A stretch of 64,000 nt of DNA from Oceanicaulis sp. (GTDB lineage Bacteria; Pseudomonadota; Alphaproteobacteria; Caulobacterales; Maricaulaceae), in NCBI GenBank assembly GCA_040112665.1, contig CP157796.1, forward strand, positions 2,567,501-2,631,500. The letters run 5' to 3'. The notes beneath the pieces are model-generated. The model saw only the letters and a list, made by a program, of their open reading frames with translations, was not told the DNA's origin and ran no database searches. The position numbers and the translations under genes were made by a program. Positions 5,811 to 42,667 of this stretch are shown piece by piece (position 1 is the stretch's first letter; each line of letters starts with the position of its first letter).

Positions 5811-5857
5811 AATGGTCGGAGCGGCCGGATTCGAACCGGCGACCCCTGGTCCCCCAG
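5811..5857. other. attL core: 3' fragment of tRNA-Pro
   Basis: These 47 bases are identical to 42621-42667, which is the part of the intact tRNA-Pro(GGG) gene from the first base of the anticodon loop to just past the encoded CCA. Identity stops at 5858 and before 5811. This copy is the original chromosomal 3' half, displaced when the phage integrated. It lacks the D arm and acceptor 5' strand, so it is not a functional tRNA. Confidence 0.93.
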
Positions 5858-28663: not shown

Positions 28664-29143
28664 CTAACCGTTCGTTCCGTTGATCTTCTTGGCGAAGTCG
28701 AAAAGGTCGTCTTGTTCGCCGAGCGCGAGGCGCATGCGCGCGAGCGGCGACATGCCGAAGTCGGACGCGCAGGAGTGAATGATCTTGATCAGCTCGTTTC
28801 GCCGGCCGACCTCCGGGCGGTTCTTGCGCTGCGTACCGTTCCGGCCCTTCGAGGTGTAGGTGAACCCCTCCTGTTTGAGCTCGCGGGTCACCTGGTCGTA
28901 TTCGCTGACGGCCTGGCAGTAGATCGCCAGCCGCATGACGTCCAGCTTGTCCAGGATGCCTTTTGCGCTGAGGAGCGGAACGATCCGGCGCCATTCCTCC
29001 ATCGCGATCCGGTCGTCGAGCATGAACTCAGGCGGGTCGAGCCGCTCATCCTTCACGACGTCGCCGCGGGCGGCCTCGTGGGGAATGAACGCGTCCGCGC
29101 CGCCTTCGAGCGCGACAAGGTAAGGCTTTTTACCCTTGCTCAT
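28664..29143 (-). CDS. Terminase small subunit, P27 family
   Basis: A 159-residue protein: RLDPPEFMLDDRIAMEEWRRIVPLLSAKGILDKLDVMRLAIYCQAVSEYD matches P27-type small terminases, with the following EGFTYTSKGRNGTQRKNRPEV and MRLALGE segments. It recognises the packaging site and loads the large subunit. It is preceded by a 156-base non-coding stretch that may hold that site. Confidence 0.88.
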   Translation of the reverse strand: MSKGKKPYLVALEGGADAFIPHEAARGDVVKDERLDPPEFMLDDRIAMEEWRRIVPLLSAKGILDKLDVMRLAIYCQAVSEYDQVTRELKQEGFTYTSKGRNGTQRKNRPEVGRRNELIKIIHSCASDFGMSPLARMRLALGEQDDLFDFAKKINGTNG

Positions 29144-29863: not shown

Positions 29864-30721
29864 TCAACCCCCCTGTTCTCTGCCGGTCCACTTTGCAAGC
29901 CGGGCATACTCGCGGAGACCGTCGCACAACAGGCCCATGCACGTTCCGTTGCGCTTGCCGACCGCCCCGTCCAGTTCGCGCGGCGTCCGCCCGTCCCGGA
30001 TCACCGCGATCACCACCGCCAGCACCGCCCGGCCCGGAAGCCCGGCGCGGACATAGTCTTCGGCCATAAGCCGCCGCGTCCACGGGACATACCGGTCGAG
30101 ATAGCCCTCGATCGCCATGAATTGGGGCGCGCCCCGCCGCCCGCTCGCCTTGACCCCGCCGGTCTGCAGCGTGTCCGGGTCGGACGCGGCGAACACCCCG
30201 GCCTCGACGGCGGTCAGAATGCGGTCGATATCGTGACCGGCCTGCACACAGATCACGGGCAGGCAGTCGCGCTCGACCAGCCACGAGAACCCGCCCGGCC
30301 TCGGCGTGACAGGCAGGCCGCCGCGCCGCGCTTCGGCCGCCCGCGCCGCCCGGCGCTGCGCCTTCAGCTCGGCCCGCCGCGCCGCCTTCGCCCGATCGGG
30401 ATCGGAGCGCACCGAACTCACCCGCATCGCCTCGCGGCGCTTCGCCCGCGCCGCGTCGATCAGCGCGCCGGCGTCCAGGCTTTCAAGCGCGGCGTCGAAC
30501 GCCGCCTCCCGGCGAGAGGCGGCGACGGCGTCCGCGCTCGCTTTGGACTTCCCGCCCCGCCGTCCGGCGATCTCCGCGCCGATCCTGCGCGCGCTGGCCG
30601 CCGCCCCGTCCGGGTCGGTCAGGGTGTGAAGACCGGGAAGCCGCTCCCAGTCGATCAGCGCGTCGAACCCGCCCGTCTCGGGGCGAACGGCGTTCGCCTC
30701 CCGTCTCGCTCCGCCGCTCAT
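29864..30721 (-). CDS. Phage protein of unknown function, last early gene
   Basis: A 285-residue protein. The middle is very Arg/Ala/Lys-rich and helical (about 85-140). The C-terminal ~100 residues contain an AVLAVVIAVIRDGRTPRELDGAVGKRNGTCMGLLCDGLREYA stretch that resembles a helix-turn-helix. The position, last before the late block, and the DNA-binding look would suit a late-gene activator or antiterminator; this is inference only. It overlaps the replication gene by 4 bases, and an exact copy of the dispersed palindrome lies near its start. Confidence 0.65.
   Translation of the reverse strand: MSGGARREANAVRPETGGFDALIDWERLPGLHTLTDPDGAAASARRIGAEIAGRRGGKSKASADAVAASRREAAFDAALESLDAGALIDAARAKRREAMRVSSVRSDPDRAKAARRAELKAQRRAARAAEARRGGLPVTPRPGGFSWLVERDCLPVICVQAGHDIDRILTAVEAGVFAASDPDTLQTGGVKASGRRGAPQFMAIEGYLDRYVPWTRRLMAEDYVRAGLPGRAVLAVVIAVIRDGRTPRELDGAVGKRNGTCMGLLCDGLREYARLAKWTGREQGG
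30682..30698. repeat. Dispersed 17-bp palindrome, copy 2
   Basis: GGCGAACGGCGTTCGCC, exact match to copies at 5953 and 37259. It lies inside the coding region of the gene at 29864-30721, where on the minus strand it encodes EANAV. Confidence 0.6.
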
Positions 30722-31620
30722 CGCGCCGCCCTCTTGCCGGTGTGAAGATTATCAAGCGCGATGCTTTCAGACCGGGGCGCGTCCAGTGCGATCACGCGCA
30801 CCCCCAGCCCGCCGAGCAATCGGCTGTGACGATCCCTCGCCTCTGCAAACTTGAACCCGTTGGCGAACAGCAGGGTCGAGCCCTGCAGCCGCGCCCCCGA
30901 GATCAGGTTCAAGCCCGCCTCCCGGCCGAGCGCCGCCGTCAGACCCTCGCGCAGCCCGCGCCAGTCGACCGCGGACGCCTCCCGATCCGGAGGGGGGGGA
31001 CTACAGGGGGGGGAGGGGTTAATAGGGTTGTGGCTCACCGTTGAGCCACTTTTCGCCGACAGTTGAGCCACTTTTCCGGGCTCGGCGGGGCGGTTTTCCC
31101 CGACCGGGTCGGAGTTTGAGCCACTATTGCAAATCGGCCCAATGTTTTCAGCGCCTTGCGAACCTTTATCGGCCGAGTTTGAGCCACTAACGCCCGCCGC
31201 GCCCTGGTCGCCCGCCTCCCCCGGAATGTCGTCGTCCAGATCGACCGGCGTGCCCGCCCCTTCGGGCTCGACGGCGAAGATTTCGGCCTCGCGGGCGCGG
31301 ATGTTCGCACGCAAAAGGTCCACGTTGACGCGGTACAGGGCCACGCGCCCGCGTCCGCGCCGCGCATGACCGATCAGCGCAAGCCAGTTGTCTTCGACCA
31401 GTTGCGCCTTCGCCCGCTTCACCGTGGCGACCGACCGGCAGGCGATATCGGCGAGCCGGTCGTTCGACGTCTTGCCCGCGTATTGCGCCGGAATGACGCC
31501 CCCGTCCGTCGCCTCGTTACAGAAGGCGATCAGGATGAGCTTGCGCACCGCAGCGCCGTCGTCACGCCCCGGCCGCCTGAGATTGGCGTGCAGCGCCAGA
31601 GATCCCAGAATGAAGCTCAT
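30718..31620 (-). CDS. Putative replication initiator with N-terminal HTH (O-like)
   Basis: A 300-residue protein from the ATG of MSFILGSLALHANL, which overlaps the preceding small gene by 4 bases. Residues 1-110 form a helix-turn-helix of the phage replication type (AVRKLILIAFCNEATDGGVIP, NDRLADIACRSVATVKRAKAQLVEDNWL). The middle (about 125-210) is low-complexity and Pro/Ser-rich. The last ~85 residues (AVDWRGLREGLTAALGREAGLNL to FKFAEARDRHS) resemble a DnaA domain I-like module. As in lambda O, the DNA coding for the middle carries repeated sites, so protein and origin probably overlap. No helicase or loader gene is evident nearby. Confidence 0.72.
   Translation of the reverse strand: MSFILGSLALHANLRRPGRDDGAAVRKLILIAFCNEATDGGVIPAQYAGKTSNDRLADIACRSVATVKRAKAQLVEDNWLALIGHARRGRGRVALYRVNVDLLRANIRAREAEIFAVEPEGAGTPVDLDDDIPGEAGDQGAAGVSGSNSADKGSQGAENIGPICNSGSNSDPVGENRPAEPGKVAQLSAKSGSTVSHNPINPSPPCSPPPPDREASAVDWRGLREGLTAALGREAGLNLISGARLQGSTLLFANGFKFAEARDRHSRLLGGLGVRVIALDAPRSESIALDNLHTGKRAAR
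30992..31018 (+). repeat. G-tract cluster beside the iterons
   Basis: On the plus strand two runs of eight G and one of four G are separated by ACTACA and a single A. They are 12 bases from the iteron palindrome and end at TTAATAGGG. The minus strand codes Pro-rich PPCSPPPPD. The pattern could form a G-quadruplex and is prone to slippage. Confidence 0.6.
31030..31188. other. Iteron array, putative phage replication origin
   Basis: The decamer TTGAGCCACT occurs four times on the plus strand at 31041, 31063, 31116 and 31179, and GTGGCTCA at 31030-31037 forms a palindrome with the first copy. Three copies read SGS in the host gene and one reads VAQ, a different frame, so conservation is at DNA level, not protein level. 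Spacings are 22, 53 and 63 bases. The array lies in the middle of the initiator gene, as lambda ori does in O. Confidence 0.7.
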
Positions 31621-37217: not shown

Positions 37218-38561
37218 ATGACCGCAGCAACCGCCGAAGCCCCCGCCGGGACAGCAGAGGCGAACGGCGTTCGCCCGCTTCCGCCCGAACCGGTGAACGT
37301 CAGGGATACCGCCCTTCTGGCCGAACTCGCCGGGCGGGCCGAGCCCGCTTTGGCGCTTGAACTGGCCAGGGCGCTCGACCGGTTCGATCCGGTCAAGAAG
37401 CGCTTTCGCTCCGATCTGGTCCTGCGCAGCCTCAGAAGCTTCGCCGATCAGGGGCTGGTCAAGCTCAGCCATGAAGGCGAGGGCGCGACGATCACGCCGC
37501 GCGGGCTTGCGATCTGGCGCGCGCTTTCAGGTCAGACCGATCAACCCGGAGAAGGCGGCGCGTTCGGCGTCATTCACGATCTGATCGAGCCCGACCCGGA
37601 CAATCCGCGCACCCTGTTCGACGGCGACGCGATCGAGGACCTTGCGCAAAGCATCGCCGACGCCGGACAGGTGCTTCAGAACCTCATTTTGCGCCGCCAT
37701 CCGGACGCGGAGAAAGCCGCAGCCGGCCGCTTCATGATCGTCGGCGGCGAACGCCGCTGGCGCGCGGTCGGAACGCTGATCAAGGCCGGGCGCTGGCCGT
37801 GGAACAGGCCGCTTCCTGCGATCGTCCGCGACTACGCCGAAGACGACCCGCACGCCGCGCGCGTCGACGCGCTTGTCGAGAACCTGCAGCGGGTGAACCT
37901 GAGCCCGCTTGAAGAGGCCGAAAGCTTCGAGCGCCTGCGCAAGGCGGGCCTGTCGACCGCCCGGATCGCCGAACGCATCGGCCGCACCCAGAGAAACGTG
38001 CAGCAGCGCCTGCAGCTTCTGAAGCTCGACCCGGCCGACCGCGCCCGCCTCGCGAGCGGCGAGATCACCGTCGAACAGGCTCGCGCCATGCTGAGCGCGG
38101 GGAGCGGCGATCAGACGGCGGAGGCGTCCGCGCCGCGTCCGATCCCGGCGGCGCGACAGCGCCAGTTCTGGACCGAGTTTCTTTATCAGGACAAATACAT
38201 TCCCGACGCTACGCTGATTGCAAACCTGTCCCGGCGCTATCGGCTGTCGCGCGAGGTGGCCGAGGCGTCGATCCATGACGCCAGCGCGGCCGGCGTGATC
38301 GCCGGGAACACGCAAGGCTGGCGTCTGGCGAGCCCTGACGTCCAGGACACGACCCCGCCCGCCCCGCCCCCCGCCGACGACCCCGCGAGCCTGTACGCCG
38401 CCGCCCGCGCGAAGGTGCTCGACGCGCTCGAAGACCTCGCGCGGATCGTCGTCACCGAGATCAGCAATTCCAACAGCCACAACCTCATTCTCTCCGCGCT
38501 GGAAAGCGGCGCGGACGGGCTGAAGGCCGCGCACGCGCGCGAGAAAGGCGACCGCAAATGA
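37218..38561 (+). CDS. ParB/Srx-domain protein
   Basis: A 447-residue protein. Residues about 30-105 look like a winged helix (RSDLVLRSLRSFADQGLVKL and an ITPRGLAIWRAL wing). The ParB N-terminal CTPase-type domain follows: DLIEPDPDNPRTLFDGDAIEDLAQSI (about 120), VGGERRWRAVGTL (about 176), then VENLQRVNLSPLEEAESFERL and the helix-turn-helix STARIAERIGRTQRNVQQRLQLL (about 252). No ParA gene is next to it, so a regulatory or DNA-spreading role is as likely as partition. First gene of the rightward operon; the 17-bp palindrome lies in its 5' end. Confidence 0.8.
   Translation: MTAATAEAPAGTAEANGVRPLPPEPVNVRDTALLAELAGRAEPALALELARALDRFDPVKKRFRSDLVLRSLRSFADQGLVKLSHEGEGATITPRGLAIWRALSGQTDQPGEGGAFGVIHDLIEPDPDNPRTLFDGDAIEDLAQSIADAGQVLQNLILRRHPDAEKAAAGRFMIVGGERRWRAVGTLIKAGRWPWNRPLPAIVRDYAEDDPHAARVDALVENLQRVNLSPLEEAESFERLRKAGLSTARIAERIGRTQRNVQQRLQLLKLDPADRARLASGEITVEQARAMLSAGSGDQTAEASAPRPIPAARQRQFWTEFLYQDKYIPDATLIANLSRRYRLSREVAEASIHDASAAGVIAGNTQGWRLASPDVQDTTPPAPPPADDPASLYAAARAKVLDALEDLARIVVTEISNSNSHNLILSALESGADGLKAAHAREKGDRK
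37259..37275. repeat. Dispersed 17-bp palindrome, copy 3
   Basis: GGCGAACGGCGTTCGCC, exact copy, 42 bases into the ParB-like gene, encoding EANGVR. It is the copy closest to a gene for a DNA-binding protein. Confidence 0.6.
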
Positions 38562-40396: not shown

Positions 40397-40824
40397 TGGA
40401 TCGCGATCGGCTGGTCACGGCGGACGATCTTGTCCGCGGCGGCTGTTGCCGAGACGGCGTGCGCGCGGCCCTTCTCAGAGAACACGAGAAGGGCCGCGCC
40501 GCGGCGGCCATGCCCGTTCGCGGCGTCGTCGCGCTCGCGACCGCGAGCGAGCGCGAGCCGGTGAGGCGAGCGCTTCAGCTCGACGGCTACGGCTACGGCT
40601 ACGGCGACGGCTACGGCTACGGCTACGGCTACGGCGACGGCTACGGCGACGGCTACGGCGACGGCGACGGCTACGGCGACGGCTACGGCGACGACTACGG
40701 CGACGGCGACGGCTACGGCGACGGCTACGGCTACGGCTACGGCTACGGCTACGGCTACGGCTACGGCTACGGCGACGGCTACGGCGACGGCTACGGCGAC
40801 GGCGACGGCGACGGCGGATACTGA
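40396..40824 (+). CDS. Gly-Tyr/Gly-Asp repeat protein
   Basis: A 142-residue protein. Residues 1-62 form a small helical domain (LVTADDLVRGGCCRDGVRAAL and VVALATASEREPVRRAL). Residues 64-139 are almost wholly a Gly-Tyr / Gly-Asp dipeptide repeat encoded by in-phase hexamers, ending GGY. I recall similar GYG-repeat tails behind a short domain with a D-L-x-x-G-x-C-x-x-G motif in other phage genomes, but no function is known to me. The repeat is acidic and aromatic, probably unfolded and sticky. Its start shares one base with the upstream stop and it precedes the next gene by 12 bases. Confidence 0.72.
   Translation: MDRDRLVTADDLVRGGCCRDGVRAALLREHEKGRAAAAMPVRGVVALATASEREPVRRALQLDGYGYGYGDGYGYGYGYGDGYGDGYGDGDGYGDGYGDDYGDGDGYGDGYGYGYGYGYGYGYGYGDGYGDGYGDGDGDGGY
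40585..40812 (+). repeat. Hexanucleotide tandem array (38 units of GGCTAC/GGCGAC)
   Basis: Thirty-eight consecutive 6-base units, all in phase with the host gene. Each unit is GGCTAC or GGCGAC except one GACTAC at 40693. The order of the two types is irregular, with runs of up to eight GGCTAC units at about 40723-40770. Such an array can gain or lose units without breaking the frame. Confidence 0.95.
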
Positions 40825-41118: not shown

Positions 41119-41372
41119 ACGCCCCCTCCCCCTCCCGGCGCGCCCCGCGCGCATACCCGCCAGACCGCGAGATCAGGCGCGCGCTCGACGCGGCGCGCGC
41201 GGCGGGGTTAAATCCGGCCGGGTTCACGATCGGCCGGACCGGGGAGATCACCGTCTTTGAACAAGCGCCGCACGCCGCCGAACCCGCGCCCGCCGACGAC
41301 GCGCCGGACCCCGCGCGCGCCGCGCTCGACGCCCGCCGCCGGCGCAAGGCCGGCGAGCCGGGCCGAGGCTGA
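41115..41372 (+). CDS. Small phage protein upstream of integrase
   Basis: An 85-residue protein. YPPDREIRRALDAARAAGLNPAGFTIGRTGEITVFE is a helix-strand unit found in proteins that commonly sit just upstream of phage integrases in alphaproteobacteria; the rest is Ala/Pro/Arg-rich and disordered. It may be an excisionase-like or accessory factor, but nothing shows this. It ends 10 bases before the integrase start. Confidence 0.58.
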   Translation: MNAPSPSRRAPRAYPPDREIRRALDAARAAGLNPAGFTIGRTGEITVFEQAPHAAEPAPADDAPDPARAALDARRRRKAGEPGRG

Positions 41373-41382
41373 GGCCGCCGCC

Positions 41383-42543
41383 ATGTCCGGCGCGCCGCCC
41401 GCCCGCATTCATCGGGTTTCGAAGATCCTTTCAGGCGGCGAACGCCGCTGGTTTTACTACGCCTGGCGCGGCGGCCCGCGCTTCTGGACGTGCGACGGCG
41501 CGCCGGTCGACTACGCCCGCCCGCCCGAAGGCTTCGGCGCCGCGCTCGACGCCGCGCGGGCCGAGGGCCGCCAGACGGCCGCAGGCCGCACCGGCGCGCG
41601 CACGGTCAGCGCGCTGATCGACCGCTACCGCCGGTCCGGCGACTTCGCCAGGCTGAGCGAGGCGACGAAAGAGACGTATGGCGTCTATTTCGCCCAGATC
41701 GAGGCGGAGTTCGGAGACGACGCCGTCATCGCCTTCGACGATCCTGAAATCGTCGACGACATTCTCGCCTGGCGCGATGAAAAGGCCGCAGCGGGCCAGC
41801 TCCGCGCCGCCGATCACCGGGTCCGGGTGCTCGCGCGGCTGTTATCGTTTGCAAGGCTTCTGAAATGGTGCGCGCACAATCCCGCCCAGGGCGTCCCGCG
41901 CCTTTATGACGCCGACCGGTCGGAGATCGTGTTCAGCCGGGCCGAGCGGGCGCTGATCTTCGAAGGCGGCCCGGCCGCCGATCCGGAGACCGGCCAGGTG
42001 CGCCAGGTCGCCCCGGCCGAGCCCCATCTCGCGGCGATCTTCACCCTGGCCTTTTACACTGGCGCGCGCCGCGCCGATCTCGCCGCCATGCCGCTCAGCG
42101 CCGATCACGGGCTCGAACTGGTCTGGCGCACGTCCAAGAGCCGGGGGCGGACCGAGGCGATCGTTCCGGTCCTTCCCCCGCTGCGCGCCCTGATCGATGC
42201 GCGCCGCGCTCAGGCCCAGGCCGCCGCGCCCGCGGAAAAGACCCGGATCGCGGCGACGACGATCCTGACGACCTCGCGCGGCCGGCCCTGGACACGGCGC
42301 GGCCTGTCCGACGCGGTGGCCAAGCGCCTGGCCGAATGTGCGATCACCGGAAAGCACCTTCACGACAGCCGGGGCACGTTCGCGACCGAGTTGTGCGAAG
42401 CGGGCTTCAGCAACGCCGATATCGCCGAGTTCTGCGGATGGAGCGGCGACGAAAAGAAGGTCGCGCGCATCCGCGCCCGCTACGTCAACCGCGCCGCACT
42501 GGCGCGACAGCGCATCAAGCGATGGAACGACGGGAAGCGATAG
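41383..42543 (+). CDS. Tyrosine-family phage integrase
   Basis: A 386-residue site-specific recombinase. Residues 1-70 may be the arm-binding domain, 75-170 the SAM-like core-binding domain (TVSALIDRYRR to HNPAQGVPRLY), and the rest is catalytic: Arg229 in TGARRADLAAM, Lys252 in TSKSRG, His327-Arg330 in HLHDSRGTF, Trp353 in CGWSG, and nucleophile Tyr367 in RARYVNR. It sits 77 bases from the attR core, which lies in a tRNA gene, as is usual. The ATG at MSGAPPARIH was chosen; an upstream in-frame ATG would overlap the preceding gene heavily. Confidence 0.92.
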   Translation: MSGAPPARIHRVSKILSGGERRWFYYAWRGGPRFWTCDGAPVDYARPPEGFGAALDAARAEGRQTAAGRTGARTVSALIDRYRRSGDFARLSEATKETYGVYFAQIEAEFGDDAVIAFDDPEIVDDILAWRDEKAAAGQLRAADHRVRVLARLLSFARLLKWCAHNPAQGVPRLYDADRSEIVFSRAERALIFEGGPAADPETGQVRQVAPAEPHLAAIFTLAFYTGARRADLAAMPLSADHGLELVWRTSKSRGRTEAIVPVLPPLRALIDARRAQAQAAAPAEKTRIAATTILTTSRGRPWTRRGLSDAVAKRLAECAITGKHLHDSRGTFATELCEAGFSNADIAEFCGWSGDEKKVARIRARYVNRAALARQRIKRWNDGKR

Positions 42544-42620: not shown

Positions 42621-42667
42621 AATGGTCGGAGCGGCCGGATTCGAACCGGCGACCCCTGGTCCCCCAG
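42621..42667. other. attR core within tRNA-Pro
   Basis: The second copy of the 47-base core, here part of the intact tRNA gene from the anticodon loop to the 3' end. The phage attP therefore supplied a new functional 3' half, and the tRNA survived integration. Confidence 0.93.

Follow-up and report, generated by a model that had tools for sequence, protein, structure and literature searches.

Sequence analysis of a 64,000-bp stretch of the Oceanicaulis sp. chromosome (contig CP157796.1, positions 2,567,501 to 2,631,500; referred to as the window) demonstrated that the O-like initiator gene of a prophage contains an array of short repeats (31030–31188), which is conserved at the DNA level and has changed in concert in a related phage. 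The array and the gene very probably form a lambda-type intragenic phage replication origin, at which the winged helix of the protein would bind the iterons and its C-terminus would recruit the helicase. The principle is that of an ordinary lambda-type intragenic origin, and the natural demonstration of iteron co-evolution is unusually clean. The initiators of the two phages are 55% identical, and all iterons differ by the same three bases; because of this natural pair, the initiator–iteron specificity and co-evolution are directly testable by domain and site swaps. It is best read as a case of iteron specificity switched between two phages, perhaps with a helicase-recruiting domain built into the initiator.

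The host is a GC-rich bacterium, and the prophage of approximately 36.9 kb is integrated in tRNA-Pro. Direct repeats of 47 bp, corresponding to the 3′ part of tRNA-Pro(ggg), were identified as attachment sites at 5811–5857 and 42621–42667, which places the prophage ends at approximately 5.8 and 42.7 kb. The prophage genes include terminase (small terminase gene, 28664–29143), portal, major head, tape-measure, and integrase genes, the last (41257–42543) located beside tRNA-Pro. A ParB-like partition protein (37218–38561, + strand; PHROG 4715, E value, 5e-27) is encoded divergently from the replication/structural operon and may be a regulator or a pointer to a plasmid-like state. In the right arm of the prophage, ACGGCTACGG-type repeats are dense at 40461–40800, with up to 15 copies per 160 bp.

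The initiator gene (30718..31620, − strand) encodes a protein of 300 aa with matches to the O-like families PHROG 391 (“replication initiation O-like”; E value, 2.4e-5) and PHROG 270 (E value, 2.6e-4), the O-like match spanning residues 24–155. The start codon of the 300-aa form agrees with that of the full-length homolog in viral contig L001, described below, which favors this form over an unsupported longer ORF of 355 aa starting from 31785. A winged-helix domain was predicted at the N-terminus (approximately residues 18–118; 31267..31567, − strand) from the PHROG match and a match to HTH_36, the latter under the family cutoff (E value, 0.026). This domain is the putative iteron binder, and its recognition-helix region covers approximately residues 61–76 (31393–31440, − strand). 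The gene immediately downstream (29864..30721, − strand) occupies the position of a lambda P-like partner and is syntenic with its counterpart in L001 (61% identity). It had no Pfam or PHROG match, and no P gene was recognizable.

The repeats fall in the linker part of the initiator. The sequence TTGAGCCACT occurs in four exact copies on the + strand, which read AGTGGCTCAA on the gene strand: iteron 1 at 31179..31188 (gene nt 433–442), iteron 2 at 31116..31125 (nt 496–505), iteron 3 at 31063..31072 (nt 549–558), and iteron 4 at 31041..31050 (nt 571–580). An inverted copy, GTGGCTCA, lies at 31030–31037 on the + strand. Together with iteron 4, which forms its left half, it makes up a perfect 20-bp palindrome (31030..31049) of the form GTGGCTCA-N4-TGAGCCAC, in which the two halves are separated by the 4-bp spacer CCGT. 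The array thus comprises four direct half-sites and one full palindrome with dyad symmetry, all within the initiator gene, and the right half-sites of iterons 1–3 are degenerate. On the gene strand, GTGGCTCA starts at nt 434 (codon phase 1), 497 (phase 1), 550 (phase 0), and 572 (phase 1); the three copies that share a phase encode SGS, and iteron 3, in the other phase, encodes KVAQ. The original prediction of four direct copies of TTGAGCCACT and one inverted TGAGCCAC within 160 bases, three of the copies in one reading frame and one in another, was therefore confirmed. When the gene was shuffled 1000 times with its dinucleotides preserved, only 2 shuffles contained any 10-mer that reached four copies per 160 bp. 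Outside the array, the 10-mer was found once in the 3.08-Mb genome, where approximately six occurrences are expected by simple 4^-10 counting. Loose matches with up to two mismatches were scattered over the whole window at chance level (34 observed, 31 expected), and no second repeat cluster was found at any promoter in the window. The significant feature is the clustering of the copies.

The sole close relative found was the viral contig L001/L047 (IMGVR_UViG_2890736068_000002), in which most genes around the initiator are syntenic with those of the prophage, at 38–63% identity. Its initiator aligns with that of the window over the full length. In the DNA alignment, every window iteron faces an L001 iteron, and L001 carries GTGGCCGG at four homologous places instead of GTGGCTCA. 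The sites start at nt 413, 476, 529, and 551 of the L001 gene (434, 497, 550, and 572 in the window gene), with identical spacing (63, 53, and 22 bp) and identical codon phases. The inverted partner likewise starts at a homologous place (nt 584 in the window gene and 563 in that of L001), and the fourth site of L001, GTGGCCGG-N4-CCGGCCAT, has the same architecture as the window palindrome. L001 contains two near-perfect palindromes, whereas the window phage contains one, which is perfect. The motif of the other phage is absent from each of the two initiator genes.

Comparison of the two arrays base by base showed that the GTGGC core is identical at all 20 positions of the four sites, while the last three iteron bases were replaced from TCA in the window to CGG in L001 (0 of 12 identical). 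The remaining linker is identical at 81 of 174 positions (47%). Since the core was kept, the triplet was replaced in concert, and the rest of the linker diverged, it is concluded that selection acts on the DNA. Protein-level selection fails to account for this pattern, which does not depend on codon phase, includes an inverted copy, and is the same in every copy; the encoded residues shift from SGS to SGR and from VAQ to VAG. The original interpretation was right in substance: the claim that the DNA rather than the protein is conserved was borne out, and the suggested check of the homologous position in a relative whose protein has diverged had a positive outcome. As judged from the two sequences, these results indicate that the sites changed together, as expected of iterons tracking their cognate initiator, and that the initiator and its DNA sites evolve together. 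In the recognition-helix region, residues 63, 65, 66, 69, and 72 differ between the two phages, and V64, V67, K68, A70, and K71 are kept in L001. We infer that the differing positions may set the iteron specificity.

Other searches for relatives yielded little. A scan of genome contigs returned no relative, and the phage and plasmid records contained no useful one, with a single weak match to a Klebsiella phage and a remote Streptomyces HTH. Two weak profile matches, L008 and L048, were spurious, both places being occupied by other genes. Viral-contig loci with three copies of AGTGGCTCA were mostly structural genes with Gly/Ser repeats and not origins. A scan for AACCCTATTA together with a C-run found no O-like gene besides that of L001's own contig (L067).

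Matches to PHROG 391 were present in 62 of 289 alphaproteobacterial genomes. The weak ones include ordinary winged helices, because control genomes match too, and one weak-match locus, L110, is RepC. Among 23 stronger O-like loci inspected in other genomes of the class, 10 had at least three linker repeats (L086, L089, L090, L091, L092, L097, L102, L104, L108, and L109). The repeats are unrelated in sequence and often palindromic, and in several loci AT-rich DNA comes after them. Their steps are mostly 21–25 bp (20–25 bp overall) and not multiples of three, except in L090 and L092, where the repeats could be protein repeats. On the basis of these 10 loci, O-like genes recurrently carry iterons in their linker, as lambda does.

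In lambda, ori lies in the middle of gene O and its iterons are 19-bp imperfect inverted repeats, next to which an AT-rich region is located (PMC7466680), in agreement with the original statement that the lambda iterons lie inside gene O. The O proteins of lambda and of Stx phages likewise have an N-terminal DNA-binding domain, and their four to six mid-gene iterons, each an inverted repeat of approximately 20 bp, are similar to those of the window (PMC7466680); both are small phage replication modules. The window differs from lambda in that its iteron sequence is unrelated, its spacing is uneven (63/53/22 bp), and three of its four right half-sites are degenerate. Its flank is a C-tract/G-rich sequence instead of a long AT-rich element, and its initiator has a C-terminus predicted to be DnaA-domain-I-like, in a module in which P is not recognizable.

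We infer that the array acts as an origin, from iteron binding through strand opening nearby to recruitment of the helicase. The N-terminal winged helix, probably as dimers, would bind the iterons in the DNA that encodes the protein's own flexible linker, the bound sites being the GTGGCTCA half-sites, the last of which is the full 20-bp palindrome. The resulting nucleoprotein complex would distort or open the DNA nearby. The C-terminal domain, probably DnaA-domain-I-like, would then recruit the host DnaB, whether directly, via a host loader, or via the product of the downstream gene.

Three other explanations of the repeats were considered. They may be operator sites, used for autoregulation or by another phage regulator, instead of an origin. 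Palindromic half-sites are typical of operators; a palindrome is present here, and the protein that binds it could act as a repressor of its own gene as well. However, the repeats lie approximately 430–600 nt into the gene and not at a promoter, no cluster occurs at promoters elsewhere in the window, and the genome holds one other exact copy. Unrelated iterons also occupy the same linker position in other O-like genes. The operator explanation is considered improbable. A site for DNA packaging (pac/cos) or for recombination was regarded as highly improbable: the array runs in the same operon direction as the small terminase gene and is approximately 2 kb from it, but it lies within an O-like initiator gene and neither inside nor next to that for the terminase, the gene that hosts it itself encodes a DNA-binding domain, and O-like genes of unrelated elements carry such arrays. 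The least probable explanation, with almost no likelihood, is that the repeats are a by-product of a repetitive, low-complexity Ser-Gly-Ser linker with no DNA function. In its favor, SGS is encoded three times in the same frame, and SGSG/GSSG protein repeats account for the majority of the AGTGGCTCA arrays in other viral contigs. Against it, one copy reads KVAQ in the other phase and another is inverted, the core is kept at 20/20 against 47% in the linker, and phases and spacing match L001 despite the residue changes.

For the intragenic origin, the DNA beside the last palindrome was also analyzed. On the gene strand, the palindrome is followed by CCCTATTA and then a long C-tract. On the + strand, this corresponds to a G-rich tract, G8-N6-G8-A-G4-TTAATA-G3 (30992..31027), which adjoins the palindrome, has a G-quadruplex motif, and is conserved in L001. 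Its G4Hunter score of 2.8 is the maximum of the window, and the L001 counterpart scores −2.68 on the C-rich strand. The nucleotide identity of the tract to L001 is 88%, compared to 65% for the gene; when the C-tract was tested codon by codon for additional conservation, the result was suggestive but did not reach significance (Fisher P 0.07). The iteron region has an AT content of 41–43%, compared to the window mean of 32%, and ranks in the top 1.4% of the 150-bp stretches of the window by AT-richness. Beside the palindrome itself, no classical AT-rich unwinding element was evident, the flank consisting of the short TTAATA and the C-tract. None of the papers searched linked G-quadruplex, phage origin, and iteron together, and a functional role of the tract is speculative.

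The C-terminal domain (residues 219–300; 30721..30966, − strand) was weakly predicted by structure modeling to have a DnaA-domain-I-like fold. DnaA domain I (PF11638, DnaA_N) has the order alpha-alpha-beta-beta-alpha-beta. The low-confidence model of the initiator (block-mean pLDDT 46–72 over residues 211–280) has predicted helices at residues 220–231 and 233–240, strands at 243–246 and 249–252, a helix at 255–271, and a strand at 275–278. With this model, the top three rows of VIA-align were DnaA domain I of H. pylori, B. subtilis, and E. coli (Z 7.1, 6.9, and 5.9; rmsd 2.6–3.1 over 64–69 residues); the helicase loader DciA scored Z 4.4 and 4.0. The first rank in Foldseek was also a DnaA domain I structure (4tps_D, prob 0.87). 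Alignment of the C-terminus to the host-order DnaA_N by hhalign added weak sequence support (P 0.003; equaled by 1 of 300 column shuffles). When predicted alone with no alignment, the C-terminus gave only generic KH-like/LarE matches. It had no Pfam DnaA_N match, and a whole-genome scan with PF11638 listed a lone gene elsewhere in the chromosome, at 707667, and not the initiator. In alignment A5, the W and F columns that would correspond to W6 and F46 of E. coli DnaA are invariant, and the Glu (E21) appears one position off, as judged by eye. In E. coli DnaA, W6 serves in dimerization, and E21 and F46 contact DnaB (PMC5448010). DnaB is recruited by DnaA domain I in E. coli, not in B. subtilis (PMC5448010). 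If the C-terminus of the initiator is DnaA-domain-I-like, it would show helicase capture by phages whose hosts lack dnaC-type loaders.

It is conceivable, though rather unlikely, that the prophage represents a distinct class of phage origin, in which the initiator joins a lambda-O-like winged helix, specific for iterons within its own gene, to a DnaA-domain-I-like helicase recruiter, and the conserved G-quadruplex-prone tract beside the last palindrome replaces the AT-rich unwinding element. In such a class, a single protein would do the work of O and of the loader contact.

The combination of iterons and DnaA_N does exist, as one surveyed O-like gene, L104 (L104:703–1959, − strand; genome G013 of the same class), joins palindromic intragenic linker iterons to a Pfam-confirmed DnaA_N C-terminus (E value, 4e-17). 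L104 shares the PHROG family match and the palindromic linker iterons with the window initiator; its DnaA_N is clear by Pfam, whereas the fold of the window initiator is a prediction.
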